Positions 14,005 to 50,937 of a stretch of DNA of 64,000 bases are shown here, piece by piece. Location: positions 1 to 64,000 of IMG/VR virus record IMGVR_UViG_3300023174_000038; one strand, 5' to 3'. The position numbers were made by a program, and so were the translations under genes. The stretch comes from a virus. How positions within the stretch are numbered: the stretch's first letter is position 1; each line of letters opens with the position of its first letter. The notes under the pieces were generated by a model. That model was given only the letters and a program-made list of their open reading frames with translations, was not told the origin of the DNA and ran no database searches.

Positions 14005-15552
14005 TTAGCTTATGACCGCAAAGAAGGGTAAAGGAGCTATATACTCATCATGGTCACGTATCTGTGTCTCTAAATTCACATGATAATCACTTAAATGCTG
14101 TAACATACGTGTTACTAATAAGCTAGCCATAATCAAATCGTCGGTATCACCTATTTTAGCAGCATAACTACCACCATGTGCTACAAATGCTTTTAGTTCA
14201 CTTATAAGACTACGACTATTTACAGTCATTTTCTTGCTCTCAACCAATGTTTTGAACTTAGCACAACTTGCTAGTTTACTTTTATTAGTTGTGTTAAATC
14301 CTCTACGTCCTTTGCCTGCTTCACTAATAAAGATGCCCGGGATATTGCTTTCGCCGTATTCGTTTAATGATATGATAGCGGCTTCCCCTATACCATTACA
14401 TTCTATACTGTAATAGATGTTATTGGGTTCATTTGTACATTCTGCTATGTATTTGCTTATTTGTGCTAAGAGTTTAATCTGACTAGGGATATCTGTTTTA
14501 TTATGTTTCCATTCACCAACTTGGGTAGTAGTGTTTGCTTCAAAAATTTGTATTGCTGACGGATCACCGCCTGTACCAAGACTTGGATCTAATCCTATAC
14601 AATAGATATTACCTTTCTTTGGCTTTTCATACCACCGAACTTGTCCTATACGACTAACAGGTTCTATACCTTCCATAGCTATCAATGTGTTAGGATTAAT
14701 CAATGTCTCATCGGCAATAATAAATTCGCACCCAATTTCTCGGTTGAAACGATCCTCGCCGAGCTGTGCTTTCATTTCGTCAGCCCACTTTTGGTCTCGT
14801 CCTGGTTGCTCACTCCAATGCGCTCTATATGCTCTAAATCCGTTAACACCAATCTCAGTGGTATTGCCAAAATCATCTTCAGTCTTGTTAGCACCTTTCC
14901 AAATATAAGCAAATTGATCCTCATCACTATTTGGTGTGCTTGTGATAATAGCTTTACCACCAGTACTTAGTGTTGGTGTAATAGCTGTCCAGAATTCTTT
15001 AGCGATACTTGGGCGAACGAACGCAAACTCATCCAAGTATAATAGAGTAATAGACATACCACGACCTGTATTTTCAGTTGTTGTAGCTGAAACTATACGA
15101 GATCCATTCTCAAAGTCTAATGACCCTTTATTGTATGTTGTTACACCTGCTTTAATGTAATCAGGACAGTTTTCATATGCATATCGTATCCGTTGCATAA
15201 TCTCCTGTGCACCTGTATATTTGTGTGCCGCAACTAAGATAGTAGAGTCCGGAACAAACATTGCATACCAAAGTAGGTAACCGGCTGCACTTGTTGATTT
15301 ACCTGATTGTCGTGGCATCAAACTAATTGAAAATCTATAGTTATGATAGGTTTCAATTAATCGTGTTTGATAAGCCCAAGGGTGATAGACCATACTACCT
15401 TTAGTAGGATGCTGTATTATAAAAAAGTTATCCATGAAGTATAGATAACCTGTAACAGGATCACAACATTTGATAAAATCCTGTAGTTCTTTATCAGTTT
15501 TGAAAACTGTTTTAGTATAAGGATTTTTTACTAGTGAAGGGGCATTACTCAT
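14005..15552 (-). CDS. terL: Terminase large subunit (gp17/TerL)
   Basis: A 515-aa DNA-packaging motor. The ATPase domain has Walker A MPRQSGKST (79-87) and Walker B LLYLDEF (170-176) followed by a coupling-type motif ITSTPN. The nuclease domain carries GLDPSLGTGGDPS near 322 and a late DTDDLIMASLL motif, the acidic residues expected for an RNase-H-like fold. Length is shorter than T4 gp17 (610) but normal for related myoviruses. It cuts concatemeric DNA and pumps it into the prohead. The ATG follows a TATAAATAC late motif by 5 nt with no Shine-Dalgarno, which suggests a leaderless transcript. Confidence 0.96.
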   Translation of the reverse strand: MSNAPSLVKNPYTKTVFKTDKELQDFIKCCDPVTGYLYFMDNFFIIQHPTKGSMVYHPWAYQTRLIETYHNYRFSISLMPRQSGKSTSAAGYLLWYAMFVPDSTILVAAHKYTGAQEIMQRIRYAYENCPDYIKAGVTTYNKGSLDFENGSRIVSATTTENTGRGMSITLLYLDEFAFVRPSIAKEFWTAITPTLSTGGKAIITSTPNSDEDQFAYIWKGANKTEDDFGNTTEIGVNGFRAYRAHWSEQPGRDQKWADEMKAQLGEDRFNREIGCEFIIADETLINPNTLIAMEGIEPVSRIGQVRWYEKPKKGNIYCIGLDPSLGTGGDPSAIQIFEANTTTQVGEWKHNKTDIPSQIKLLAQISKYIAECTNEPNNIYYSIECNGIGEAAIISLNEYGESNIPGIFISEAGKGRRGFNTTNKSKLASCAKFKTLVESKKMTVNSRSLISELKAFVAHGGSYAAKIGDTDDLIMASLLVTRMLQHLSDYHVNLETQIRDHDEYIAPLPFFAVIS

Positions 15553-27912: not shown

Positions 27913-27941
27913 ATTATAACATGTTATGGTATTTATGTCAA
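27913..27941 (-). promoter_or_regulatory. Early sigma70-like promoter P9 overlapping a late-type motif
   Basis: Minus strand TTGACA (27936-27941), 17-nt spacer, perfect TATAAT (27913-27918). The late-type ATAAATAC (27929-27936) overlaps the -35 box. The terminator of the porin gene ends directly against the -35 box. Confidence 0.8.
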
Positions 27942-27985: not shown

Positions 27986-28891
27986 TTAAAAGCTATGAGA
28001 TAAACCAATACCAACTTGTTTAACATCATTTGTTTTACCACCAGCATCAACATTGCGATAAGCAACTAATACATTGGTACGCTTACTGAAAGCATAATTA
28101 ACACCTACGTTATATGCTTTAACTTCTCCTGCGGCTAAACCAGTTTTAGTAGCATAGCTACCTTTAACACTAACTTCATTAGTTACCGGAGCTGTTACAC
28201 CATAAAAATGACCTTTAGTTTTAACTAGACCTGCTTTATCATCACTTTGAATTGTAGACAATTCAAAACCAGCTAGTTTTCCACTAGCAGTTACTACATT
28301 GGTATAATCTGTACCAGATTCAAAACGTGCAACTGCGGCTGCAACAGGACCTAATTTTCCACCAATACTCCATGATGTTGCTTCTAACGTAGCAGGTGCT
28401 GTGTACATACTACGGTCATACGTAGCAAATACAGGACCAAAATTTGCGGCTAAGTAAGCACCATCACCAATACGCTTGTCACGTACATTAACTACATCAA
28501 CCGAAACGGATGAATAAAGCGCACCGCCAAATGGATCAGCGTTCTTCATAGTAATGTATTCACTGTGTTCTTTACGACCTAAATCAATACTACCAAATTT
28601 ATTAGAAAGACCAATTGTACTTTGACGATCACCTAATTGTGTTGTAGCCCCAGCTTTTGGATCATCGGCTACTACAGAAGTTTCAACAACTACTCTAGCT
28701 GTTAATCCATGTCCTAATTTTTCTTCAGCTTTGATGCCAAAACGACTTGAATCATTAACAAGAGAGTTAATTTTTACAGTACCTGTTTTAGTGCTATCAG
28801 CAAATTCACTGATTTTACCATATACTGATACTTGTGCTGTTGCAACCATTGTTGTTGCAGCCAATAATGTCGCTAATGCGATTTTTTTCAT
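27986..28891 (-). CDS. Outer-membrane general porin (Burkholderiales type)
   Basis: A 301-aa precursor with a Sec signal peptide (MKKIALATLLAATTMVATAQ) and mature start VSVYGKI, as in Gram-negative general porins. The SRFGIK, GSIDLGRKEHSEY and YNVGVNYAFSKRT segments are classic of the Burkholderia/Neisseria-type porin family. It ends HSF, the C-terminal Phe needed for outer-membrane assembly by BAM. Length is slightly short for a 16-strand barrel (340-380 is usual), so some loops are trimmed. It has a late promoter TATAAATA and a strong Shine-Dalgarno AAGGA. It probably adds or changes outer-membrane permeability, or hides receptors. Confidence 0.88.
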   Translation of the reverse strand: MKKIALATLLAATTMVATAQVSVYGKISEFADSTKTGTVKINSLVNDSSRFGIKAEEKLGHGLTARVVVETSVVADDPKAGATTQLGDRQSTIGLSNKFGSIDLGRKEHSEYITMKNADPFGGALYSSVSVDVVNVRDKRIGDGAYLAANFGPVFATYDRSMYTAPATLEATSWSIGGKLGPVAAAVARFESGTDYTNVVTASGKLAGFELSTIQSDDKAGLVKTKGHFYGVTAPVTNEVSVKGSYATKTGLAAGEVKAYNVGVNYAFSKRTNVLVAYRNVDAGGKTNDVKQVGIGLSHSF

Positions 28892-28913
28892 AAAATTTCC
28901 TTTTAAAAATAAA

Positions 28914-28927
28914 CCTGATTAATCAGG
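28914..28927 (-). promoter_or_regulatory. 14-bp palindrome in the porin leader
   Basis: CCTGATTAATCAGG followed on the minus strand by TTTATTTTT. It is placed between the late promoter and the porin ribosome site, so it might attenuate, stabilise the mRNA or bind a protein dimer. Confidence 0.5.
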
Positions 28928-28936
28928 CTAGACTAA

Positions 28937-28944
28937 TATTTATA
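28937..28944 (-). promoter_or_regulatory. T4-type late promoter for the porin gene
   Basis: Perfect TATAAATA on the minus strand, 46 nt upstream of the porin ATG. Confidence 0.6.
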
Positions 28945-28975
28945 GTAATTTTTTCTACCCATATAAAATAGTTGT

Positions 28976-29668
28976 TTACGTAATAACGTCTGCTTTAACA
29001 TGAAAAATAGCTCTTTTTACCAAACTATCTATACTATTAACTAAGGGAATGCCGTTTTTTTCTACTTCTCTAACGGCTAATGGTAATTCTGTACAACCTA
29101 ATACTACTGCACTTGCTCCACGACTAATCAAACTGTCTACTACAGGCATTAACATATTATGTGATACAACCATATCCCCTGCCTTAATTAAATCTATAGC
29201 AGGTTGTACTATGTTGTTCATTTCTTCTTGACTGGGGACAATACAATCCCAATCAATTAAACGATTTTGATATAAGCCTAATTCAATTGTAGCTTGTGTT
29301 CCCATTATACCTATTGTACCCGTAACATTTATATCACGTAATACATCAGCTACACTATCTACAATATGTAAAATAGGAACTTTAAATTTAACTAATTCAT
29401 CATACCAGTAATGCGCTGTATTACAAGGGATAACAATCGTAGTACATCCAACTGCTTTCAATACTTGCATACCTTGTAGTAAATATGGTAGTGGTCTATC
29501 ATCACCATTACGTATACTTGTGCTACGATCAGGTACACGTGGCTCATTCCATAATACAAATGGAATATGTTCTTGGTCACAAGTTGCGGGGGTTTGTTGT
29601 ATAAGTCGTGTTATATATTCCGCACTTGCTGCCGGACCCATACCGCCTAGTATACCTAGACGTTTCAT
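28976..29668 (-). CDS. Aspartate/glutamate racemase family enzyme
   Basis: A 230-aa cofactor-independent amino-acid racemase. Two catalytic cysteines are in place: Cys82 in IPCNTAH and Cys192 in LGCTELPL. The start MKRLGILGGMGPAASAEY is diagnostic for the Asp/Glu racemase superfamily (YgeA/RacX-like; the substrate can be Asp, Glu or broader). It interconverts L- and D-amino acids. It overlaps the membrane-anchored gene as ATGA and sits between a transporter and a porin, so it probably acts on imported amino acids. Alternatively it could make D-Asp/D-Glu for cell-wall interference. Confidence 0.9.
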   Translation of the reverse strand: MKRLGILGGMGPAASAEYITRLIQQTPATCDQEHIPFVLWNEPRVPDRSTSIRNGDDRPLPYLLQGMQVLKAVGCTTIVIPCNTAHYWYDELVKFKVPILHIVDSVADVLRDINVTGTIGIMGTQATIELGLYQNRLIDWDCIVPSQEEMNNIVQPAIDLIKAGDMVVSHNMLMPVVDSLISRGASAVVLGCTELPLAVREVEKNGIPLVNSIDSLVKRAIFHVKADVIT

Positions 29669-30270
29669 TTTTTGTTAAACAATAAACTAGATGCAATAAC
29701 CATAGCAGTTTGTGCGGCTTCTACATCTGTGGGTTGTTCTTTCCAACCTACACTAATCTGCCCAATGAAGACTCCGGGCTCTGCTGGTACACTGATACGA
29801 CACATATAGTTTACTCCGTATTCTTTATATACAAATCCAATAAGACTTTGTGGCTTTGTATATGGGCTACAGGGAATCTTACCTGACATCAATCCAATAA
29901 CATCGTTATTATTGTCATAGTTTTTACTAAACAACCCAACTTCTAATCCGTCATTTCTTTTATCTCTACCACCATTGCGTGTAGCTAAGTAAACAACTTT
30001 TCGTGTGTTAAGCAATGTATTGACTTCAAGAAAGGCAACCATTTCTACTTCAGTATTTTTTAATAAGAAATTATATGCGTCATCATACTTACCGTTCATC
30101 TTTGGTAATGCCTGTTGAGCACGGTAACTTGCTAAGAAGGCATCTTTTTCTGTATAAACTATCCAACCACCAAATCCTAGTACACAGAGAAACACAACGG
30201 TGAATAGGCGAAATGGACTTTCGCCTATATAGGTTAATAAACTAAAGAGAAAATCTTTAAGTTTGTCCAC
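29665..30270 (-). CDS. Membrane-anchored protein with extracytoplasmic sensor-like domain
   Basis: A 201-aa protein with one N-terminal membrane segment (about 20-37, LFTVVFLCVLGFGGWIVY) and a periplasmic domain of about 160 residues. The ending VNYMCRISVPAEPGVFIGQI, then VGWKE, has a GAF-like look (three-strand sheet core and helix), but this is uncertain. It overlaps the transporter by 14 nt and the racemase by 4 nt, so its function is tied to that block. It could be an accessory or regulator of the transporter. Not recognised as any named family. Confidence 0.75.
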   Translation of the reverse strand: MDKLKDFLFSLLTYIGESPFRLFTVVFLCVLGFGGWIVYTEKDAFLASYRAQQALPKMNGKYDDAYNFLLKNTEVEMVAFLEVNTLLNTRKVVYLATRNGGRDKRNDGLEVGLFSKNYDNNNDVIGLMSGKIPCSPYTKPQSLIGFVYKEYGVNYMCRISVPAEPGVFIGQISVGWKEQPTDVEAAQTAMVIASSLLFNKK

Positions 30271-31534
30271 CAGTAGCTACCTCTTTGTCGCAGACAAATG
30301 CTGTTACTGCAACATTGCCGTGTACGTGACTTGCTGTACGAATCATATCCATTAATGGATCAACGGCAATTAACAATACTAACACAGCTTCACTTGGTAG
30401 TTTTAATAAGTCACACACAACTGCTACTGTAGCAACTGTAAGAATACCTGTTGTACCTGCACTTGCTAATCCTGCCAAAATACTACCAAATAACACAACT
30501 GCTAGTCCCGTTAAGCCTAATGGAGCATCATAGATATTAGCAATGAATACTGTAGCAATAGCATAGTAAACAATACTACCAATACGATTGACTGTAAAAC
30601 TTAGTGGAACTGTTAGTTCAACACCACCTTTATCAAAGTGTAGTCTGTGTAATGATTCTTGTGCGTATGGAATACAAGCTAAACTACTACGTGAACTAAT
30701 AGCAACAATCAATGTTTCTTTAGTTTCACGGATAACAGTCATTAGACTTAATCCACTACGATACCAGATCATAGCAGTACCTGCGGCTACAACTAATAGT
30801 CCACCAACAAACTGTTGGAATACAAAGTCAAACATTGTTAAGAATATACCTACCCCTACCTTACCAACTTGGGCAGCAATCATTGCTAATAGAGCGATTG
30901 GTAAAAAGTAATTTAAGAATTTAAAGATACTGATACTTGCTTGTTGAATGCTTTTAAGTACTTCAACTAGCATCTTTTGACCTTCTGTTTTAAGATGTCC
31001 AAGAGCAACACCAAATATTAAACAGAAGATAACAATCTTCAAACTTTCACCATTGTTTAACGTGTTGAAAATGTTTTCTGGAATAAACTTCTCTGCCATC
31101 TTACCTGCACTTACTGCCGGTGCTACTGGCATTGGTTCTTTAAGAGTAATGTTTAAATCAGTACCACTGTCTTTGTTATTAACCAATACACCAAGTTGTG
31201 TTTTCTTTTCAGGAGTCATTTCAGTTCCTGTGACTAAAACTGTACCTACGCCAATTATTGCGGCTAAGAACATGCTACCAACAAAGCCTACAATGATTTT
31301 GCGTATTAATTGTTGGCTGCCTTCTTTTTGTAGTAAGCCAATGATACCAACTAGTATAGTTGCTAACAAGAATGGTAGTACAACAACTTTAAGTAAACTT
31401 ATATAGATACTACCAATACTATCAAAGTTAATGCTGAACTCGGGTGCGTAAACACCACTCAATATACCCACGATAATAGAACCAAGTATGGTCCACGGGC
31501 TTGTTAAAAACGTTTTTAAATGTGCGGTTGTCAT
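30257..31534 (-). CDS. SLC1/DAACS-family amino-acid or dicarboxylate transporter (divergent)
   Basis: A 425-aa integral membrane protein with the DAACS (GltP/DctA) plan: eight helices and two re-entrant hairpins. HP1 tip SSRSSLACIP corresponds to RSSSGTLP of GltPh. TM7 has NRIGS in place of NMDGT. TM8 reads DMIRTASHVHGN, keeping the substrate-binding Asp and Arg but replacing the sodium-site residues N401 and D405 by His and Asn. This suggests altered or absent sodium coupling. It lies between a periplasmic binding protein (9 nt away) and a membrane-anchored protein. Substrate probably an acidic amino acid. Confidence 0.85.
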   Translation of the reverse strand: MTTAHLKTFLTSPWTILGSIIVGILSGVYAPEFSINFDSIGSIYISLLKVVVLPFLLATILVGIIGLLQKEGSQQLIRKIIVGFVGSMFLAAIIGVGTVLVTGTEMTPEKKTQLGVLVNNKDSGTDLNITLKEPMPVAPAVSAGKMAEKFIPENIFNTLNNGESLKIVIFCLIFGVALGHLKTEGQKMLVEVLKSIQQASISIFKFLNYFLPIALLAMIAAQVGKVGVGIFLTMFDFVFQQFVGGLLVVAAGTAMIWYRSGLSLMTVIRETKETLIVAISSRSSLACIPYAQESLHRLHFDKGGVELTVPLSFTVNRIGSIVYYAIATVFIANIYDAPLGLTGLAVVLFGSILAGLASAGTTGILTVATVAVVCDLLKLPSEAVLVLLIAVDPLMDMIRTASHVHGNVAVTAFVCDKEVATGGQT

Positions 31535-31543
31535 ACTGAGTCC

Positions 31544-32362
31544 TTATTTCTTTTCAGCTTTGTAGCGATCCATTAACTTTTTAGTGTCAATATTACTGTA
31601 TTCATTTTTAATAACGTAATTAATAATGCTTAACAGTTGTAGTGATTTAGGATTTACTGCTACAGCAATATTATCTACGCTATCACTTATTGTAATTGTC
31701 TTAGTACTAATTGCGGCGTCTGGTTTCTCAAAAGCAATTTTCTTAATTTCAAACTCATCACGGTACGCAGCCGCAATATCACCCCTTGTAACTTTATCAA
31801 TGATTACATCCCATTTATCTTCTGGTAGAAATACAGCATTAGGGAAATTGATACGGGCAAATGTGTCATAGCTTGAGTTACGAATAAAACTTATTTTACC
31901 GTTAAAATCTCTAATTACTTGATATGTTTCTTTGCCTTGACTATTTTGACTTAGCCATAAACGATTAACAACTAAACTTTGTCTTAGCTTAATATAAGGA
32001 TCACTGAACCTAACAACCTGTAATCTAGGGCCGGTTACTGACAATTTGCTAACAGCAATATCGGCACGTCCGTCTCGTACTTGTTCAACAACTTCAGCAA
32101 AACTTTCTGCATCTCGTCTAAATTGTACTGGAACTCCGAGTAATACTCCAATTCTTCGTGCAATTTCAACGTCAAGACCATGGATATCATCCTCACCGCC
32201 ACTGAAGAAGGGAGGGTTATCTTTTTTGGTCATAGCCACAATAAGAACGTTTGCTTTCTTAATTGCGGCTATATCAGGGGGTAGTGGTACCGTAGAAGTT
32301 GGTAATTGTGCGTGGACAACTGAACTAATCAGTACAAATAATAATAGTAGTAGTTTTTTCAT
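31544..32362 (-). CDS. Periplasmic amino-acid-binding protein (SBP family 3)
   Basis: A 272-aa protein from ATG 32362; an upstream in-frame TTG is ignored because the signal peptide starts here (MKKLLLLLFVLISSVVHAQ). The mature protein has the SBP_bac_3 pattern: GLDVEIARRIGVLLG, RDAESFAEVVEQVRDGRADIA, and LSVTGPRLQVVRFSDPY with the conserved Arg that binds amino-acid carboxylate. Such proteins normally serve ABC importers, but no ABC gene is present; instead an SLC1 transporter follows at once. It probably captures amino acids in the periplasm for that transporter. A late-type CATAAATAC lies 6 nt before the ATG. Confidence 0.85.
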   Translation of the reverse strand: MKKLLLLLFVLISSVVHAQLPTSTVPLPPDIAAIKKANVLIVAMTKKDNPPFFSGGEDDIHGLDVEIARRIGVLLGVPVQFRRDAESFAEVVEQVRDGRADIAVSKLSVTGPRLQVVRFSDPYIKLRQSLVVNRLWLSQNSQGKETYQVIRDFNGKISFIRNSSYDTFARINFPNAVFLPEDKWDVIIDKVTRGDIAAAYRDEFEIKKIAFEKPDAAISTKTITISDSVDNIAVAVNPKSLQLLSIINYVIKNEYSNIDTKKLMDRYKAEKK

Positions 32363-32375: not shown

Positions 32376-32432
32376 TGCAAGGTTATATGTCAATTGTTTT
32401 ACTAATAAAAAAGAGCCCCACAGAGCCCTTAG

Positions 32433-32511
32433 TACTGGTTACGCAAATCCAGCGACACGCTATTTTGTGTCCGATTTAAATATAGCTAAAAACCAGCGTT
32501 TAACGCCAGTA
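32433..32511 (-). other. Structured intergenic element bounded by an inverted repeat
   Basis: TACTGG (32433-32438) pairs with CCAGTA (32506-32511) at the two ends. Inside are GACAC/GTGTC and GCG/CGC hairpins. It is not a recognised tRNA: no T-loop and no anticodon arm. It could be a terminator-like or small structured RNA. Confidence 0.3.
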
Positions 32512-38275: not shown

Positions 38276-38347
38276 TTTTATTATCATCCTCTAGAGATAG
38301 TATTTATTTGCTTATTAGTTGAGAAATATCACACTTTATTAAATAGG

Positions 38348-38367
38348 AAAGGCTCCTAAGAGCCTTT
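38348..38367 (-). terminator. Rho-independent terminator after the tmRNA coding piece
   Basis: An 8-bp stem AAAGGCTC/GAGCCTTT with TTAG loop (minus), followed by CCTATTT. It is nearly identical to the hairpin at 27945-27966. Confidence 0.88.
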
Positions 38368-38564
38368 ACTGAGTTTCTGTTACGAGGTATGTCTTACCCT
38401 AGGCTGCGTTTAGGCTGCCAATGCGAACTGTGAGTCGTTTGCGTTTACTTTTTTTGCTTCTACGGCCGAGTTCCCCCAACCCTAACGGCTTCTGCTTTGC
38501 CGAGCGCCTAATCTTAACTACTATCCTGTCGGTCGATCCCAAGTCACCCCCATCATAAAAACAC

Positions 38565-38605
38565 AATACCAAAGTAAATTTACACGGAATACCAAAGTAA
38601 ATTTA
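38565..38605 (-). repeat. 18-bp direct repeat inside the tmRNA intervening segment
   Basis: AATACCAAAGTAAATTTA occurs at 38565-38582 and again at 38588-38605, 23 bp apart. It lies wholly in the segment removed during processing. It is A/T-rich and may be a processing signal or a homing footprint. Confidence 0.85.
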
Positions 38606-38681
38606 TGCTCTTATGGTGGAGGTGGGGAGAATTGAACTCCCGTGTCGCCAGTGTTTCCTAAGCAGGTTTACGCTGTTCTTA

Positions 38682-39314
38682 CTATTTAGTCAACCTACCC
38701 CTAGATAGATTGAATAAAGTAATTTTATCATCATCTGGTTTTAAATAAAAGTTAATTTGGGAATTATTATACCAATGTTTACCGTATGCATTACTATTCT
38801 TATTCTTTCTGTTGTCTCTCCATTCCGATGTAGGTATCCATCCGGATGGAATTTCATTTTTGTAGTACATTTTACGATTAACTAATTCAACTGACGATTT
38901 TTCTACACACCAAACTTTTCCAAAATTAGAGTTATTTTCTTTTTGTTGGTGCTTTCTTTCTTTAAAAGTTTTATTTCTCTTTTCCATTGCAGATTGGGTT
39001 TTTGACAACTTACTTGCTCGGGCTTGTTGTTCTTGATTTATCGCAAAATTAGTTTTAGTTTGAACATTTTTAAATGGATTAGGATGTAATTGTCTGCATT
39101 TTTTACCAGCTTCACTTTGTCTAATTTTTACTAATTCTTCTTTAGGACTTAATTTTGCTAAACCCTGCCATGCAACATAATCTTGCCAACGACCATATTC
39201 TTCGTATAACTTGCGATGTGCCTCTGCATGTTCATCAATAGATAATTCTATAAGGTTCCTAGGATCATCTGTCCCGCCTGCGTGTTTAGGAATAATATGG
39301 TGTTTATGGCTCAT
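38682..39314 (-). CDS. HNH homing-type endonuclease
   Basis: A 210-aa protein from ATG 39314 (MSHKHHIIPKHAGGTDDP). The HHIIPKHxGGxDDxxNL...HAEAH pattern is the HNH beta-beta-alpha-metal fold with its catalytic His and metal ligands. The Lys/Asn-rich C-terminal half ends in a DNA-binding-like region (WIPTSEWR, NAYGKHWYNN) reminiscent of phage homing endonucleases with NUMOD-type motifs. Its stop codon directly precedes the tmRNA acceptor piece. A late-type CATAAATAC lies 4 nt before the ATG. It probably spreads itself between phage genomes and may carry the tmRNA along. Confidence 0.85.
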   Translation of the reverse strand: MSHKHHIIPKHAGGTDDPRNLIELSIDEHAEAHRKLYEEYGRWQDYVAWQGLAKLSPKEELVKIRQSEAGKKCRQLHPNPFKNVQTKTNFAINQEQQARASKLSKTQSAMEKRNKTFKERKHQQKENNSNFGKVWCVEKSSVELVNRKMYYKNEIPSGWIPTSEWRDNRKNKNSNAYGKHWYNNSQINFYLKPDDDKITLFNLSRGRLTK

Positions 39315-43542: not shown

Positions 43543-45096
43543 TTATTTGTTATAATTATTTAATATATCAGATAGCCATGGTATATAATTTTCTAATTTA
43601 TGACCTCTAATGTCATCTAACCTACGGGTATCGTCAGCTAGCTTTGGTAACAGATGGCTATTATCTTTAGCAAACATATAGTTGATTAAACCACTATAGC
43701 TATGCCTAAATATATTACCCATTTCTAGTCCATATTTTTCATCTATTTCTTTGTAAAAAAATTCATATGCTTCTCGTATTTGATTTTTTACATTAACGGG
43801 TAGTACTTGTATACTCATGGGAGACGGGCCCTCTAGTACGTGATAGCTAGGCGTTTTTCTAATTCTTTTATAATTTTTTTCTATTAACCATTTAGAAATT
43901 TCTAAAAAATGATATACATTGAATATACTTATAGTAGTAGATATTGTACCATAAATAGATTTAGTTGGATTATTACCTAACACATCTAAATTTTGTTCTA
44001 GTGCATCCCAAGTACTTGGATATCTTAGATAGTATGCCAAATCCTCAATTGCATCTATACTGCATCCTATTCCTACGGATCTGAACTCTTCCCATAAGTT
44101 ATATAGCTTATTTGGTATAGCAAACATATTTGAATTGTAATCCAAATGAACACGATTGCTATGACCCATATCTATAATTTTTTGTAATAATTTAAAATGT
44201 ATTTTATTAATTGTAGGTTCGCCGCCGGTAAAATAATATCGGTCAATATAGGGAATTAGTTTTTCAATTTGATTCCAGAATTCATCCGATTCATACCATT
44301 CAAAATCCGAAGAATCAATGGTATAATTATTATTTTTTTTGATTACATTATACGTTTTTCCCCCATAAAAAGACATAGGAGCTGAGGAAGGCTTTTCTCC
44401 CTCGTATGACATGAAAACAAAATCGTCATACCACAGACTGCTATCGGTCGGGCCGCAATATCTACATTTTAAATTGCATAAATTTCCAAAACGAATATCA
44501 ATATATTTTATTGGAAACTTTTCTATATCTATACTTCCATCATTAGCAGTGTTATCAATGAATCCTGTATGTCCGTATGTATTAATACTGTGTAATCTTT
44601 TACTAGATAAACCGGTGTCTTCTTCTTTCCAACATAAATTACATGACGGATGTTTTTCTCCGCGCAACATACTTGCACGTAATTCTTTAAATACTGTGTT
44701 ATTTCGTGATTGATTTATATCAGTATTTTTAACGTTTAACATTTCTCCGTTCTCTATTAGTTTACCGTACGGGTAGTATATCTGTTGACAACAAATTCTT
44801 AAATCTCCATTTTGTTGTATGCCAGTAGAGACCCATGGTATTGGGCAAAACGTTGAATTTTTTGGAAGGTCCTGCATTTGAGGATTTATTTGATTCAGTC
44901 TTGTTTTTGCTAGCTCAATTGAAGCTTCTGAGCAATGAGGATTTTTCATACCTGCTACTATAACTTCTGATTCAACATCATGTGTTATCATAGCTGTTAT
45001 TAATTCAGGAAAATCTGTAATTGTAATAAGTTCAACTCGTTCATTAGAATCAAAACAGTTGTGAAGTTTATTAAACCAATATTCACTGGTATTCAT
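43543..45096 (-). CDS. Radical SAM enzyme with N-terminal twitch/SPASM-like domain (1)
   Basis: A 517-aa protein. Residues 1-75 are a helical N-terminal segment (ELITAMITHDVESEVIVAGM) similar in plan to that of the 774-aa enzyme. A Cys-rich twitch/SPASM-like domain follows (FCPIPWVSTGIQQNGDLRIC at 83-102, CNLCW near 152). The radical SAM core starts with CNLKCRYC (207-214), the [4Fe-4S] ligand motif. The N-terminal twitch order matches the family NCBI names N-terminal twitch rSAM. It cleaves SAM to a 5'-deoxyadenosyl radical; the substrate is unknown. It overlaps the next gene by 4 nt. Confidence 0.88.
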   Translation of the reverse strand: MNTSEYWFNKLHNCFDSNERVELITITDFPELITAMITHDVESEVIVAGMKNPHCSEASIELAKTRLNQINPQMQDLPKNSTFCPIPWVSTGIQQNGDLRICCQQIYYPYGKLIENGEMLNVKNTDINQSRNNTVFKELRASMLRGEKHPSCNLCWKEEDTGLSSKRLHSINTYGHTGFIDNTANDGSIDIEKFPIKYIDIRFGNLCNLKCRYCGPTDSSLWYDDFVFMSYEGEKPSSAPMSFYGGKTYNVIKKNNNYTIDSSDFEWYESDEFWNQIEKLIPYIDRYYFTGGEPTINKIHFKLLQKIIDMGHSNRVHLDYNSNMFAIPNKLYNLWEEFRSVGIGCSIDAIEDLAYYLRYPSTWDALEQNLDVLGNNPTKSIYGTISTTISIFNVYHFLEISKWLIEKNYKRIRKTPSYHVLEGPSPMSIQVLPVNVKNQIREAYEFFYKEIDEKYGLEMGNIFRHSYSGLINYMFAKDNSHLLPKLADDTRRLDDIRGHKLENYIPWLSDILNNYNK

Positions 45097-46403
45097 AGCC
45101 GTTCTCCTGTATGATGTTGTAACTCAGGAAAGGTTTTTTTGAAATCAGTATTTCTTTCTTTATCTAGTTTAATCAAATAACCCATATACCAGTTAACATC
45201 AAAGTCAACAGTTTCTTCTAATGCATTTTTAATTATACTTAACCTGTTATCAAATACATTTTTACAATCTTCCTGTAATTTTTGTGAAGATTTTAATGGT
45301 AATAATGTATTGTAATACCATTGCTCATACTCGGAAATTTTAATACGTAAATGTTCTTTCCATTCTTTACTAGCGGACCTTATTGAAAAGTACTCAGGAT
45401 ATAGTAAAACAATATTATGATAATCAGATTCCCAAATACTAGTGTTGTAAAACGTATGCGGGAAGAGGTCATTTACTAAAAAATATTCTAGTATATCTTT
45501 TATCCGATGTATATTCATCAGACTCCAGGTTGGAGTAATTACCCAATGACGATTACTTCCTGTTAAATTATCTTTTAATAGTTTAATATTTTTCAATATT
45601 TTATTTGCATCAGCTGGATAGCGTATGTAAAATAATCTATCCACATCAACTTCATCTAAACTTACTAATACACGTAATTTTTCCATGTGTTTCCAGTAAT
45701 CTAAAACGTCTGTTGATTTATAAGTCATTGTGGTTAAGTTAGTACTGTACACAAATTCTATTTCTCCTAATCTGTTTGATTCTTTAATATATTCTAGTAT
45801 TTCATAATGTTCAGGATGAAGTAAAGGTTCTCCACCAGCAAAATATATTTCTTCAACATTGTTTACTTGCGATTTTATAGTTTCAATGAAGCTTTCTTTA
45901 TGATTTTTACTGTTATTAAATTGATCCTCAGTATAATTAGGATCAATTGCCTTCATAATAGGTACCCATGAACTACTATACGTAGGATGGCACACTGTAC
46001 ATGCTAGATTACATAAATTGTTAAATCTGAAATCCCATTTCAAAAATTTCATACTACTCATTGTTCCATCTATAGCAGTATTATCTTCAATCAGTTCTTC
46101 ATAAAAATCTTTAAACCTATCATTAAAGCTTCGGCGTATTGTTGACGTACTTCCCCATTCTTCTTCTTTGTAGCATCTTGTACAATGTTTTGATTTTGTA
46201 TCGTTTAATATATCTCGTCTTAATTCTTTATAATTTTCATTGTTCCAAATATCTTGTATATTTTCTTTATACAAATTCCCCATACTGCCACCTAAACTGA
46301 TACAGCAGGGAAGTATATCTCCTGTTGGAACATTATGTATATGCATAAACGGAGCCATGCAAAATACTTTGCTTTCTTTAATGTGAAATGTTTTTTTAGT
46401 CAT
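45093..46403 (-). CDS. Radical SAM enzyme with N-terminal twitch/SPASM-like domain (2)
   Basis: A 436-aa protein from ATG 46403 (MTKKTFHIKESKVFCMAPFM); an earlier start would lie deep in the upstream gene. Twitch-type cysteines FCMAPF and ILPCC lie near 15-34, with GNLYKENIQDIWNNENYKEL, the classic SPASM linker, and CTRCYKEEEW at 74-83. The radical SAM core motif is CNLACTVC (131-138), with GGEP following (YFAGGEPLLH). It overlaps both neighbours by 4-8 nt. Substrate unknown; probably works in series with the four other rSAM enzymes. Confidence 0.88.
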   Translation of the reverse strand: MTKKTFHIKESKVFCMAPFMHIHNVPTGDILPCCISLGGSMGNLYKENIQDIWNNENYKELRRDILNDTKSKHCTRCYKEEEWGSTSTIRRSFNDRFKDFYEELIEDNTAIDGTMSSMKFLKWDFRFNNLCNLACTVCHPTYSSSWVPIMKAIDPNYTEDQFNNSKNHKESFIETIKSQVNNVEEIYFAGGEPLLHPEHYEILEYIKESNRLGEIEFVYSTNLTTMTYKSTDVLDYWKHMEKLRVLVSLDEVDVDRLFYIRYPADANKILKNIKLLKDNLTGSNRHWVITPTWSLMNIHRIKDILEYFLVNDLFPHTFYNTSIWESDYHNIVLLYPEYFSIRSASKEWKEHLRIKISEYEQWYYNTLLPLKSSQKLQEDCKNVFDNRLSIIKNALEETVDFDVNWYMGYLIKLDKERNTDFKKTFPELQHHTGERL

Positions 46404-48720
46404 TTGAAATTTTAAAAACTTTTTTTGATTTATTTCTATACTGTTCGTGTACCGTTTCTTTTGTTTGAATTTCAGATGATATCCAATCTTTAATATTACC
46501 TGTTTCTTCAAAAACACCATCAAAACTATAATTAACCTTTTCTCTTTCCAATCGGTATGTTTCTTTTAAGTGCGGAGTTACTGTATCATGTACAAATTTA
46601 TGTGTCAACTTTATATTATAGTTGCCATTAGAGTCTATCTCAAACGTTAGATCAGAGTCGTACATTCTAGAAATATAATCACCAAACGTATTAAAGTCAG
46701 TTTCTGCATTGCACTTAAATGTAAATTTAAAAGCTCCAAAGTACGTGTGTATAACATATAGCAAAGCAAAATATTCGTTAGTTATACTAGCAAAAAACGT
46801 GTTATCTGTGTTTCTATTCAAGTTAACATATTGGTCATATGTTATATAGTCTGTTACATTTTTAGTACCAGTAAAAGTATAAAAATCTTGTATATTGTGA
46901 TATCGTTGAGCATTAATCATAGCAGAATCAGAATAATAATTGATTATATCTAACCACACATGGTTTAATTTTATTCTTAAAAATCTATGCATAGCAGTAT
47001 TATTATCAGTATGCCATGAGTTAAATAAATTGTTATCGTAGGGTTTCTCAATCCAATTCATTCCATAATCTTTCCAATTAGTATCCCAGTGTGCAATACT
47101 TTGGGGCGGTGATGCTCCAAAGCCTGGACTTATATTATCAATCCAATTTCTACAATTGAATAGTAATTGAAAACTATGTAAGCAGTCGATTGGTTCTTCT
47201 GTGGGGAATCCTACCATCCAATTTATGTGAACAAACATCCCCGACGCTTTAGAATCTTTAAGATTATTTTCTACTTCCCATATGTCAATCTTCTTACGCA
47301 TATCATTAAGAACTTTTTGACTTCCTGATTCTACCCCATAGCTCAGACATGTGCATCCACTATCTGTAACCTTTTGTAAGAATTCAGCAGTCATTCTTCC
47401 ATCACATCTTGCGTAAGAGTTCCAATGTATTTTAATATTTCTTTCTAATATTAGATCAACCAGTTTTTGGAAATTTTTTAAATTTCCATTAACTAAACTA
47501 TCAACAAACCAAAATCTACTAACACCTAAATTATTTTGTTGGTATTCTATTTCATCTACTACTCTTTCCGGAGTCATTGATCTAAATTTCCAGAAATGTG
47601 TTTCAGCGCAAAAACTACAGTCTGCTACACACCCTCTAGACGTTTCAATGCTAACCCCGTAGCTGTGTTCGTAGTTGCTAAAATTGTAATCAGAATAGTC
47701 CGGATACGGGTATACGTCTAAATCTAATTTACTATTTACCGTCCCTATAGTTTGACTGCTACCAATATCGGTATCATCAGTTAACTCTTCCAAAAATTTT
47801 ACAAAATTTTCTTCAGCCTCTCCTATAAATTTGTAATTTATAAGAGTTGTTAATAAATGTCCGTTGCTAATAGCACCGGGACCTCCTACCACGATACATA
47901 CATCGGGCATCATATATCTTAATTCCCGTATTAGATATAGACTAGCATGGATGTTTGTATCATATAAACTAAATCCAACGACCTTGGGATTAGATTGAAG
48001 AATATTAAATAATGTTCTATCAAATACGTCCTTCAAGTCGGGCAATATAAATTCACTAAAACTTTCCGAGCTATTCCAATAAAAATATCTATTTGATGCC
48101 CAGTAGTCAATTCCGGTGGTATCATGAAGATGATGGAAAGATTCTATATTAAGATCGTACACTCTAACACTATAATCTAAATGTCTCAATAATCCTGTTA
48201 GTTTGGCGAGGTTGTAAGGTGGAAATAGTTTTCCCCAAGCTGGCGCTACTACAAGTCCAATTCTAAATTTAGAAGTGTCTGCCCATTCAACTTCTTTATG
48301 GATATATCCGGAATCTACGGTAGGTTGTTCATCTCCTAAATGTGATATTGCATGACTTAGATTTGAATCTTTTTTAAGTATATGATTTAGGATAATTTGA
48401 TCCCGATCACCGACAACCATCTTTGTTGCCTCTTCCTCTTGTTTTGCAATATCATCCGACATTAGTGTTATTCTTTGTCGTCTGTCTCTTTCACTCCAAA
48501 ATCTAGGATTATCAATTTCGGGAAATCTTAATATTGCAATTTCAATAAATGCTTTATCAATTTTAGAACTAACCGCGGCAGCCTCTACGACAGACGCCAT
48601 TGTGTCCCATTTGATCATATTTTCTAATATATAAGTTGGGCATCCTCGTGTGGATGCAACATTAATTCTTTCTAAATGATCCGCATCTTTTAGTCTTTCT
48701 TCAAAGTTTATTTTTTTCAT
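46396..48720 (-). CDS. B12-binding radical SAM enzyme
   Basis: A 774-aa protein with three parts. A helical N-terminal region (1-130, LENMIKWDTMASVVEAAAVS) may be protein-binding. A Rossmann-like cobalamin-binding-type domain follows at about 150-320 (LVVAPAWGKLFPPYNLAKL, then VVGFSLYDTNIHASLYL and IVVGGPGAIS), lacking the DxHxxG base-off motif. A radical SAM core begins ETSRGCVADCSFC (364-371) and includes NWMVGFPTEEP. Such BchE-type enzymes perform C-methylation, ring closure or other radical chemistry. The last 200 residues are unique. It overlaps the next rSAM gene. Confidence 0.88.
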   Translation of the reverse strand: MKKINFEERLKDADHLERINVASTRGCPTYILENMIKWDTMASVVEAAAVSSKIDKAFIEIAILRFPEIDNPRFWSERDRRQRITLMSDDIAKQEEEATKMVVGDRDQIILNHILKKDSNLSHAISHLGDEQPTVDSGYIHKEVEWADTSKFRIGLVVAPAWGKLFPPYNLAKLTGLLRHLDYSVRVYDLNIESFHHLHDTTGIDYWASNRYFYWNSSESFSEFILPDLKDVFDRTLFNILQSNPKVVGFSLYDTNIHASLYLIRELRYMMPDVCIVVGGPGAISNGHLLTTLINYKFIGEAEENFVKFLEELTDDTDIGSSQTIGTVNSKLDLDVYPYPDYSDYNFSNYEHSYGVSIETSRGCVADCSFCAETHFWKFRSMTPERVVDEIEYQQNNLGVSRFWFVDSLVNGNLKNFQKLVDLILERNIKIHWNSYARCDGRMTAEFLQKVTDSGCTCLSYGVESGSQKVLNDMRKKIDIWEVENNLKDSKASGMFVHINWMVGFPTEEPIDCLHSFQLLFNCRNWIDNISPGFGASPPQSIAHWDTNWKDYGMNWIEKPYDNNLFNSWHTDNNTAMHRFLRIKLNHVWLDIINYYSDSAMINAQRYHNIQDFYTFTGTKNVTDYITYDQYVNLNRNTDNTFFASITNEYFALLYVIHTYFGAFKFTFKCNAETDFNTFGDYISRMYDSDLTFEIDSNGNYNIKLTHKFVHDTVTPHLKETYRLEREKVNYSFDGVFEETGNIKDWISSEIQTKETVHEQYRNKSKKVFKISND

Positions 48721-49973
48721 TATGTTTGATTTTTAAATAATTCAAGTTGTTGCTCAGTATACTGAACTACTTCTCCTGGATTTTGCATCCCTCGTATTGG
48801 AACAAGACTTACAACACCTTTAACTCTTCCATTTGCACCCGGTCTGTTTAATAAATCTAAATTTAATATTTTCTCTTTTAATTTTAATGCTCTATCTATA
48901 TATTTAGGAGGAGCCATTAATTTTACTTCTAACCAATGGTCATCGTCATGTTCATCAAAATGTTCGCATATTACTTTAATATTTTTAACAAATCTATCTT
49001 CATCATTGTATTCTGTTAAGCCGTCAAAATGAGCACTTAATAATATGCTATTCATATATTTTGCTAGTTCCCCCCAGTATTTATGATCTCTGGTTCCATT
49101 ACTAGTTACCATAGTCCATTGGTTTTTACCTTTAAGATACTTAATAAAATCTAAAAAGTTAGGATGTAACGTAGGCTCACCGCCGCCAAAGTTCCATCTG
49201 ATGGTTTTATTATGGGCCCATTCTTCAATAATCTTATCAGCAGTGCTTATCAATAAGTCATAATCTTTATGGGTATCAGTTTTATTATGCACTCCTGGCC
49301 AGCAATAGGAACAATCATAATTACATTTTCTGCTAAGATCCCATAAAATTTGATAGGGCATAGAATAATTCAATTCAACTGCAACTGGATCACTTATATT
49401 ATCAACATAATCATTTTCAGTACGGTCTCGCCCTTGCCATCCTTCATTGTTAACAGCAAGCGTTGTCCTATGCATTTTAGTTTTGACTTTGCTTAATACA
49501 ACATCAGCACCGCAGCTACATGAATTCCACGGACATACAAACCACTCTTTAGACAAAGAAAAACTTTCATTTATATTGCCCAAAAACCCAGGTATATTAT
49601 TTTTATTTTCTTCTGTTACTGGGATTATTTTTTTATATGCCTTGCCATTCTTTTTAAATTCTGATTCTAATTTTAAAAATTCTTCGCCTGTATGCCACCA
49701 CTCAGATGGAATATTTTTTCCAAATTTATCAATCTTAGAGAATAACAATTCTTTCCAATTGTCATGATTAAAACGGTCTATGAATGAACTAGCTGTATTA
49801 CATACCCAAATGTTGCCGTCAAAGTCAATATATAAATTTTGAACTCCGGCGCTACATTTCCAATTTTGCCAATAATTATATCTGTTTGCAATTGCTTCGT
49901 CAACCGAAACTCTTATAAATTTTCCATCATCATCATATATTCTTAATTGCTTGTTGTTGTTAATATTATCCAT
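48720..49973 (-). CDS. Radical SAM enzyme with twitch-like cysteines before the core (3)
   Basis: A 417-aa protein. Near the N-terminus NWKCSAGVQNLYIDFDGNIW (residues 38-57) and later FLGNINESF, CPWN and CSCGAD (130-156) match the C-terminal auxiliary domain of the neighbouring 319-aa enzyme. The radical SAM core follows with CNYDCSYC (217-224), and GGGEPTLHP is the SAM-binding motif. The auxiliary domain is thus before the core here and after it in the neighbour. It overlaps the 774-aa gene at a single base. Substrate unknown. Confidence 0.88.
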   Translation of the reverse strand: MDNINNNKQLRIYDDDGKFIRVSVDEAIANRYNYWQNWKCSAGVQNLYIDFDGNIWVCNTASSFIDRFNHDNWKELLFSKIDKFGKNIPSEWWHTGEEFLKLESEFKKNGKAYKKIIPVTEENKNNIPGFLGNINESFSLSKEWFVCPWNSCSCGADVVLSKVKTKMHRTTLAVNNEGWQGRDRTENDYVDNISDPVAVELNYSMPYQILWDLSRKCNYDCSYCWPGVHNKTDTHKDYDLLISTADKIIEEWAHNKTIRWNFGGGEPTLHPNFLDFIKYLKGKNQWTMVTSNGTRDHKYWGELAKYMNSILLSAHFDGLTEYNDEDRFVKNIKVICEHFDEHDDDHWLEVKLMAPPKYIDRALKLKEKILNLDLLNRPGANGRVKGVVSLVPIRGMQNPGEVVQYTEQQLELFKNQT

Positions 49974-49977
49974 TATG

Positions 49978-50937
49978 TTACTTTATATCTAATTCTTTGG
50001 TGCTCATTATGTCAAAATTACAATGACACATAGTTTTATTACATAATACAGGTGTTTTTGGTACTTCAAAGGCTTCAAATATATTACCAATCTTTCCACC
50101 TACTCTACACCAACCACGATATATGTCGCCACCTAAGTCTACAATAATCTGCTCTGCACCGGCATAACAATTCCACCCACTCCAATCATTAGTCTTTTGA
50201 CTGATAAATCTATGTGCGCTAGAAACAACTTCTGTATTATCTTCTTTAATCATCTTCATGGCACCACGATAGTAATCAAATGATTTGGTATACTTAATGT
50301 GTTTAACAATCAACTCATGTTGTTTATCAAATATCTTCTTTTGAAACTCATCATAATCATACAATGTATCACCAAAATCATGTATCAACGGCTGTAATGC
50401 CATACTGATATTGCCTATACCCTTAACTTTATTAGCTACAGCATAGCAAAAATCAAACTTATCTGGACTCATCATAATGTTTACATGTGTACGTACATCA
50501 TCATGCAACAACTTTACTACTTCTACAAAGTGGTCAGCTTCTGCAAACTCAGGGTGAAAGCTTAAACATACATGGTCAAAGTATTGTTTATTATCTTCCC
50601 ACCAACGTAATGTTCTACTGCCGTTACTAATCAATCCTACTTTAGCACCTAATTCGGTGCAATGTTTACATATCTCTACAAAATGTTTGTATAGTGTTAC
50701 TTCACCACCGGTTAGTTCAAAGTAAACTTTACGCGGAGCAACTTGTTCTACTACACGTGTGATAAATTCTTTAACTTTATCTAGTTCAGGCCATTTAATA
50801 TCACCTGAATGAAGATTCTCTGGACAATAACTACATTCAAAGTTACAAGTATTACCCATACACCAATTGACTACAAACCATTCTTCATGTACAGGGTTAC
50901 TGTGTACTAACTTAATATAATTGTGTTCCATTACCAT
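49978..50937 (-). CDS. Radical SAM enzyme with C-terminal auxiliary cysteine domain (4)
   Basis: A 319-aa protein. The core motif CNFECSYC is at 31-38, followed by ELTGGEVTLYKHF. The C-terminal auxiliary domain (WNCYAGAEQIIVDLGGDIY, then GKIGNIFEAF and CNKTMCHC) likely binds a second iron-sulphur cluster. It overlaps the glycosyltransferase-like gene upstream by 7 nt. The adjacent enzyme carries the same auxiliary domain at the other end. Substrate unknown; it belongs to the rSAM/glycosyltransferase block. Confidence 0.88.
   Translation of the reverse strand: MVMEHNYIKLVHSNPVHEEWFVVNWCMGNTCNFECSYCPENLHSGDIKWPELDKVKEFITRVVEQVAPRKVYFELTGGEVTLYKHFVEICKHCTELGAKVGLISNGSRTLRWWEDNKQYFDHVCLSFHPEFAEADHFVEVVKLLHDDVRTHVNIMMSPDKFDFCYAVANKVKGIGNISMALQPLIHDFGDTLYDYDEFQKKIFDKQHELIVKHIKYTKSFDYYRGAMKMIKEDNTEVVSSAHRFISQKTNDWSGWNCYAGAEQIIVDLGGDIYRGWCRVGGKIGNIFEAFEVPKTPVLCNKTMCHCNFDIMSTKELDIK

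Follow-up and report, generated by a model that had tools for sequence, protein, structure and literature searches.

Gene order and conservation of the cassette

The window analysed here is a stretch of 64,000 nucleotides, the first 64 kb of the 348,701-base virus record IMGVR_UViG_3300023174_000038 (G000). Five adjacent genes at positions 27986–32362, all on the minus strand, had been described in a first-pass annotation as one amino-acid acquisition block. We find that the unit consists of four of these genes, which encode, in order, a secreted amino-acid-binding protein (SBP), a transporter of the SLC1/DAACS fold (SDF), an anchored protein (ANC) and an aspartate/glutamate racemase (RAC), and that it is an accessory cassette of large freshwater phages; the fifth gene, a porin, is a separate phage gene. 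We consider it about two-thirds probable that SBP captures an amino acid of the Asp/Glu type, that SDF imports it, that RAC converts its enantiomers, and that ANC is a regulator or a holin-like component added by the phages. We found no account of this block in searches of the literature.

All five open reading frames were confirmed in place and are carried by phage, and four of the products match Pfam families. SBP (31544..32362, minus strand, 272 residues) is a secreted family-3 amino-acid-binding protein (SBP_bac_3, PF00497, E = 1.4e-17). SDF (30257..31534, minus strand, 425 residues) is an elevator-type transporter of SLC1/DAACS fold (PF00375, E = 4e-66). ANC (29665..30270, minus strand, 201 residues) belongs to phrog_31287 and has no match in Pfam, where even at E ≤ 10 no convincing family appeared. 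RAC (28976..29668, minus strand, 230 residues) is a racemase independent of pyridoxal phosphate (Asp_Glu_race, PF01177, E = 3.2e-38). The genes are tightly packed: SBP and SDF are separated by 9 nt, and the overlaps reported by the first-pass annotation amount to 14 nt between SDF and ANC and 4 nt between ANC and RAC. The gap between RAC and the porin is 84 nt and holds a terminator-like hairpin (AGCCTGATTAATCAGGTT followed by TATTTTT; 28912..28929, minus strand), which is the probable 3′ end of the four-gene unit. A similar hairpin just upstream of SBP (32411..32430, minus strand) is its probable 5′ boundary, and a second lies upstream of SBP at 32492–32510. Eight terminator-like sites were found against 3.2 expected, and these were used for positions only; a scan for consensus promoters gave the same number of matches as in shuffled sequences and was not used as evidence.

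Viral loci were gathered through exact 8-residue patterns, which fetched 75 places from viral contigs for SDF, 69 for SBP, 45 for ANC, 31 for the racemase and 17 for the porin. Gene order was counted at those SDF loci where the contig reaches far enough. On this basis SBP lies directly upstream of SDF in every testable viral locus (64/64) and ANC lies directly downstream of it in every one (67/67), while RAC follows directly behind ANC in 54 of 62 loci and is found within 4 kb in 3 more. The spacing inside the block consists mostly of short gaps or overlaps. The check that the first-pass annotation had named, conservation of gene order in other phages, thus came out in favour of a real unit, with the order SBP-SDF-ANC-RAC recurring in dozens of viral contigs. 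The genes that flank this unit vary from phage to phage, and it therefore behaves as a cassette. A terminase scan showed the host phage group to be large, with at least 600 matches; since one 263,709-base record of this group (G314) has no SDF match, we regard the block as accessory.

The median pairwise ratios of nonsynonymous to synonymous substitution rates (dN/dS) against the window copies are 0.076 for SBP, 0.072 for SDF, 0.082 for ANC and 0.154 for RAC. All four are functional genes under purifying selection, which is strong on SBP, SDF and ANC.

The block occurs twice, once on each strand with about 195 kb in between, in a record of 524,565 bases (IMGVR_UViG_3300027749_002876; loci L031 and L072), which represents a very large phage or else a chimaera of the assembly. 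The identity between the window (28976–32362) and locus L031 is unequal from gene to gene (ANC 97%, SBP 94%, RAC 90% and SDF 83%), which suggests recombination within the cassette.

The porin is a separate gene

The porin (27986..28891, minus strand; Porin_4, PF13609, E = 5.7e-23) adjoins the block and was judged to lie outside the unit. The first-pass annotation had placed it at the start of a nutrient route of five genes, where it would serve as the outer-membrane step. The gene is indeed adjacent and co-directional in the window, and 6 of 55 related loci have a porin within a few kb of the block; however, in none of these 55 is a porin adjacent to it. Among 11 large records that bear the block, 4 have a Porin_4 match and 7 have none, and SDF is not matched in three records that do carry a porin. 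The porin keeps its own neighbours when the block is absent: g27652, MoxR and VWA are retained in most block-less contigs that carry a porin, and in one of these (L200) the order MPE–GT2–porin–g27652–MoxR–VWA is the arrangement of the window record minus the block, allowing for an ALA-like gene that its 1.2-kb GT2–porin interval may hold. The median dN/dS of the porin against the window copy is 0.45. With the terminator-like hairpin standing in between as well, we rejected the porin as a member of the unit and assign it to a separate unit beside g27652, MoxR and VWA, which leaves the five-gene route very improbable.

Two perfect 12/12 matches to the sigma-70 consensus (TTGACA-17-TATAAT) lie just downstream of the porin, at 27941–27913 and 27650–27622 on the minus strand, ahead of small genes and MoxR.

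Phage origin of the DNA

Host DNA, or an artefact at a join in the assembly, had been named as a possible source of the block. Cellular homologues do exist for all of its genes except ANC. Against such an origin, the same block occurs in dozens of further viral contigs, GC content and base composition run without a break across it, a phage-specific gene (ANC) sits inside it, and its phage neighbours vary; a terminase gene (14005–15552) shares the window with it. We therefore give contamination a negligible probability and regard it as ruled out.

In phage records, a near-identity search with the block region gave no match. Protein searches of the same records gave matches to SBP, SDF and the racemase that were mostly unannotated fragments or bacterial in appearance; these are probably contamination and were not used. 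ANC alone gave matches in clearly phage records.

Elsewhere in the window, a transfer-messenger RNA at 38319–38717 (minus strand) matches beta_tmRNA (RF01850) and tmRNA_permuted (RF04321), with the predicted tag ANDSQFALAA, and this sequence match suggests that the host is a betaproteobacterium. A cluster at 43543–50937 (minus strand) encodes several radical-SAM proteins, among them one that has a B12-binding domain.

Binding protein, transporter and racemase

The match of SDF to PF00375 is full length, covering profile positions 3–384 of 387, and the SDF profile aligns with Asp/Glu transporter structures over most of its length. The transport core (HP1, TM7, HP2 and TM8) ranks with the best-conserved regions of SDF. 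Alignments place the TM8 motif at DPLMDMIRTASHVHGN (30314..30361, minus strand), in which D396 and R399, the ligands for an acidic amino acid as substrate and equivalent to GltPh D394 and R397, are kept, and these two residues are invariant in 21 diverse phage copies. The Na+ sites are altered. Residues 316–320 (30575..30589, minus strand) read NRIGS instead of NMDGT, the hallmark motif of Na+-coupled members of the family, with Arg at the Met position and Ile at the Asp position, and the TM8 Na+ ligands Asn and Asp are replaced by His403 and Asn407. The change in the Na+ motif is present in all phage SDF copies aligned, a few of which read NRLGS or NRVGS. With both NMDGT and the TM8 Asn/Asp pair altered, SDF departs from the Na+-coupled SLC1 transporters of the GltPh/EAAT type. 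SDF1, a related transporter from bacterial operons described below, reads LLRxGP at the NMDGT place, and the arginine is therefore common to cellular relatives. Arginine can replace bound Na+ in other carriers, for example CaiT, and by analogy we infer that it may stand in for Na+ in the phage SDF.

SBP carries a signal peptide (MKKLLLLLFVLISSVVHA-Q), and its profile matches binding proteins of amino-acid ABC transporters. It keeps the T-x-x-R and Asp positions that are typical of amino-acid SBPs, for the α-carboxylate and the α-amino group respectively; R113 and D202 are invariant. A signature comprising K-L-S-x-T...R and R-D-E-F-E is shared, with minor variation, with the SBPs of the bacterial operons. 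The block contains no ABC permease or ATPase gene, and none was recognised among the recurrent neighbours, which were read by eye rather than scanned singly. The only carrier is SDF, with none of the TRAP, TTT or GltS type. The gene for SBP is coupled to a secondary carrier in all 64 testable phage loci and also in the bacterial operons. Given the constant position of SBP directly upstream of SDF and the absence of ABC partner genes from the block, we regard the pair as a candidate binding-protein-dependent SLC1 transporter; on the sequences, a binding-protein-dependent secondary transporter is the simplest reading.

The best matches to the RAC profile are solved aspartate racemases. RAC combines the family match with the two catalytic cysteines of Asp/Glu racemases, C82 and C192, which are invariant in the 25 copies aligned.

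A bacterial counterpart

A genome collection scanned with a pattern-limited search gave one strong match, an SBP–SDF pair 66% identical to that of the phage, on a contig from a metagenome-assembled genome (MAG) of Burkholderiales. This pair lies beside genes of the xanthine/CO-dehydrogenase type and is without ANC or RAC. We then searched 301 genomes of that Burkholderiales family with the SDF profile, and found operons of the order SBP–SDF1–RAC–SDF2 in several of them. The identity of their products to those of the window genes is about 32–36% for SDF1, about 36–39% for SBP and 33–40% for RAC. In the SDF tree, the MAG copy joins the phages (support 100/99) and the bacterial SDF1 sequences form their own clade (95/98). 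From these sequence relationships, the phage unit is best read as a relative of the bacterial operon that is missing SDF2 and to which ANC has been added, and the Burkholderiales operon of binding protein, transporter, racemase and second transporter is the likely parent.

In the Burkholderiales operons (L234–L242 and L254–L260) the two SDF proteins are different from each other and both have altered Na+ motifs; SDF1 and SDF2 might form one transporter, or a pair of carrier and sensor. The Burkholderiales MAG contig that bears the SBP–SDF pair also has two further divergent SDF genes (L210:7284–11226, minus strand), which adjoin the gene for a mechanosensitive-channel protein that has a cyclic-nucleotide-binding domain.

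ANC and its predicted likeness to T-type holins

ANC is predicted to have a short cytoplasmic N-terminus, one transmembrane helix and a periplasmic GAF-like domain. Cys134 and Cys157 are invariant in the alignment. The AlphaFold model, with a pLDDT of 88, consists of a long N-terminal transmembrane helix and a C-terminal α/β domain. Foldseek searches with this model gave GAF domains, and the periplasmic domain of the T4 holin T (6px4/6psk) was among the top PDB matches, with the highest target TM-scores (0.64–0.65 on target). In a viral library, the matches were annotated T or class III holins together with unnamed phage proteins.

Profile comparisons gave a weak signal. With hhalign, the ANC profile matched T holins with a probability of 20–49% in local mode and 92% in global mode. 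The global score was 41.5, where the best of 60 block-shuffled controls reached 28.2, and in local mode T scored 35.5 against at most 18 for unrelated profiles. The single T4 T sequence gave nothing against the ANC profile (3%), and this weak signal comes from the family profile only. The holin T family PF11031 has no match in the window record or in phages S13 and Ci1 (the T4 positive control gave 1.3e-119). In the window record there is no second ANC-like or T-like gene, and a search for an RI-like gene found nothing above background; a GH19-type endolysin gene lies at 311,204–311,824, about 280 kb from the block. On the modelled architecture, ANC is a phage-specific, T-holin-like protein, and it is a probable distant relative of the T-type holins.

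Homologues of ANC occur in Cronobacter phage S13 (KC954775) and Citrobacter phage Ci1 (OR515478), both of which are T4-like and have a phage lysozyme gene without a match to holin T; the homologues are candidates to fill the place of this holin.

A paralogous branch, ANC2, comprises 50 viral loci. In its main group, the gene for ANC2 overlaps by 4 bp a gene for a secreted two-cysteine protein (89–114 residues) in nearly all of the fully covered loci, and some of the copies have a GH19 or GH24 endolysin gene nearby. This pair of ANC2 and its partner is widespread in freshwater phages (L187:10748–11778, L038:4100–5127, L002:5833–6851 and L309–L349), and in two contigs that bear the block, L187 and L038, the genes for ANC2, the partner and a GH19 endolysin directly follow it. 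The two proteins are possibly an undescribed lysis pair of the T/RI type. We also considered the partner as a homologue of T4 RI, which the structural comparison did not confirm: its predicted fold matched neither T4 RI nor anything else.

Proposed working and alternatives

We propose that the secreted SBP would catch an acidic amino acid of the Asp/Glu type in the periplasm and pass it to SDF, which as an elevator transporter would import it. The two lost Na+ sites are predicted to be unused, given the arginine in the NMDGT region. RAC would then interconvert D- and L-aspartate (or glutamate) in the cytoplasm, so that both enantiomers could be used or a D-amino acid made. ANC, the phage addition, probably tunes lysis or the state of the membrane, or regulates the transporter.

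Several points weigh against this scheme. We infer binding, transport and racemase activity from sequence, and with them the substrate, the coupling, the direction of racemisation and any link to lysis. The viral loci are mostly close relatives (about 70–95% identity) and include near-duplicate contigs, and the counts of gene order do not represent independent events. In 8 of 62 loci RAC is absent or lies elsewhere, so that it is less essential than SBP, SDF and ANC. Because of its long branches, the SDF tree does not establish whether transfer ran from the phages to the Kiruna MAG or the other way. The altered Na+ ligands could mean that SDF is a receptor or a degenerate protein; the conservation of its core argues against decay.

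The likeness of ANC to holins raises the question of whether the block controls lysis, with SBP (and SDF) forming an amino-acid-sensing arm that gates ANC as a T-like class III holin. The burst would then come earlier or later with extracellular Asp/Glu, the racemase and transporter setting the signal. We give this reading a low probability. The match of the ANC model to the T4 T periplasmic domain and to phage holins, the profile score above all shuffled controls, and the lack of any other ANC-like or T-like gene in the record speak for such a module, as do the ANC2 pairs with their overlapping two-cysteine genes and nearby endolysins, including the GH19 gene behind the block in L187 and L038. 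Against it, PF11031 is not matched and the local hhalign signal is low, general GAF folds score nearly as well as T4 T, the small partner has no fold match to the solved RI and is absent beside the ANC of the block (ANC1), and the endolysin of the window record is distant. The fullest form of the idea, in which a binding-protein-dependent SLC1 transporter that lacks the usual Na+ sites would act together with a racemase and the holin-like periplasmic GAF protein to read or control acidic amino acids in the envelope and set the time of lysis, is slightly more doubtful still; if true, it would be a nutrient-responsive lysis distinct from the lysis inhibition triggered by superinfection. SDF might instead be a membrane receptor or scaffold, with SBP, SDF and ANC forming a signalling complex in the periplasm by which acidic amino acids are sensed. 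The changes at the Na+ motif and at two TM8 ligands in every phage copy aligned, the corresponding change in bacterial SDF1, and the sensor-type GAF-like domain of ANC fit such a complex, but the strong conservation of the transport core and the retained substrate Arg and Asp do not, and linkage to a racemase in both phages and bacteria suggests metabolism; we consider a receptor unlikely. Uptake and racemisation of an acidic amino acid remains our preferred reading.

What stands of the joint block first described is a phage-encoded binding protein, transporter and racemase, conserved in order and under purifying selection; the continuous route from porin to racemase does not. The bacterial parent operon, the altered Na+ motif, and the place of ANC in a phage-specific, GAF-like and T-holin-like family were absent from the first-pass annotation.

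Comparison with known systems

Compared with T4 holin T (class III, PF11031), ANC has the same predicted layout of a short cytoplasmic N-terminus, one transmembrane helix and a periplasmic GAF-like C-terminal domain; it differs in having no PF11031 match, in its cysteine pattern, and in sitting in a transport operon. The pairing of T4 holin T with the antiholin RI (PMC11413866) finds a likeness in the small secreted partner encoded beside the paralogue ANC2. Through its holin-like insert, the block suggests a connection between amino-acid supply and the timing of lysis that can be tested.

Transporter genes in phages are usually reported singly. The block resembles such auxiliary metabolic genes, among them single porins and transporters, in that a phage carries a host-type transport gene, and the window porin is of this kind; it differs in being a conserved operon that joins a binding protein, a carrier, an enzyme and a phage-specific component. 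An import operon that is conserved, is maintained by selection and brings its own binding protein and racemase would demonstrate that phages take charge of an uptake step in full. The bacterial SBP–SDF1–racemase–SDF2 operon shares with it the three gene families, their order, the SBP motifs and the TM7 arginine, whereas the phage block has no SDF2 and has ANC between SDF and the racemase.

SDF resembles the SLC1/DAACS transporters (GltPh, GltTk and the EAATs; PF00375) in its full-length family match, its elevator-type core and the TM8 Asp and Arg, and differs from them in NRIGS for NMDGT, in the two replaced TM8 Na+ ligands and in having an SBP as operon partner. SLC1 is the archetypal elevator family, and its members are not known to use an SBP. 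That the SBP–SDF pair occurs in bacteria as well as in phages suggests that binding-protein-dependent secondary transporters include a further class. The closest parallel is TAXI-GltS, a binding-protein-dependent secondary transporter described in 2025 (PMC12344293), in which the gene for a periplasmic amino-acid SBP is likewise found with that for an elevator-type glutamate transporter, with no ABC partner. The components are different: TAXI-GltS has a TAXI SBP and GltS, and the phage and bacterial blocks have SBP_bac_3, SDF/SLC1 and a racemase. The authors of that work ask whether the elevator mechanism permits partnership with an SBP (PMC12344293), and the SBP–SDF pair would be a direct test of this question.

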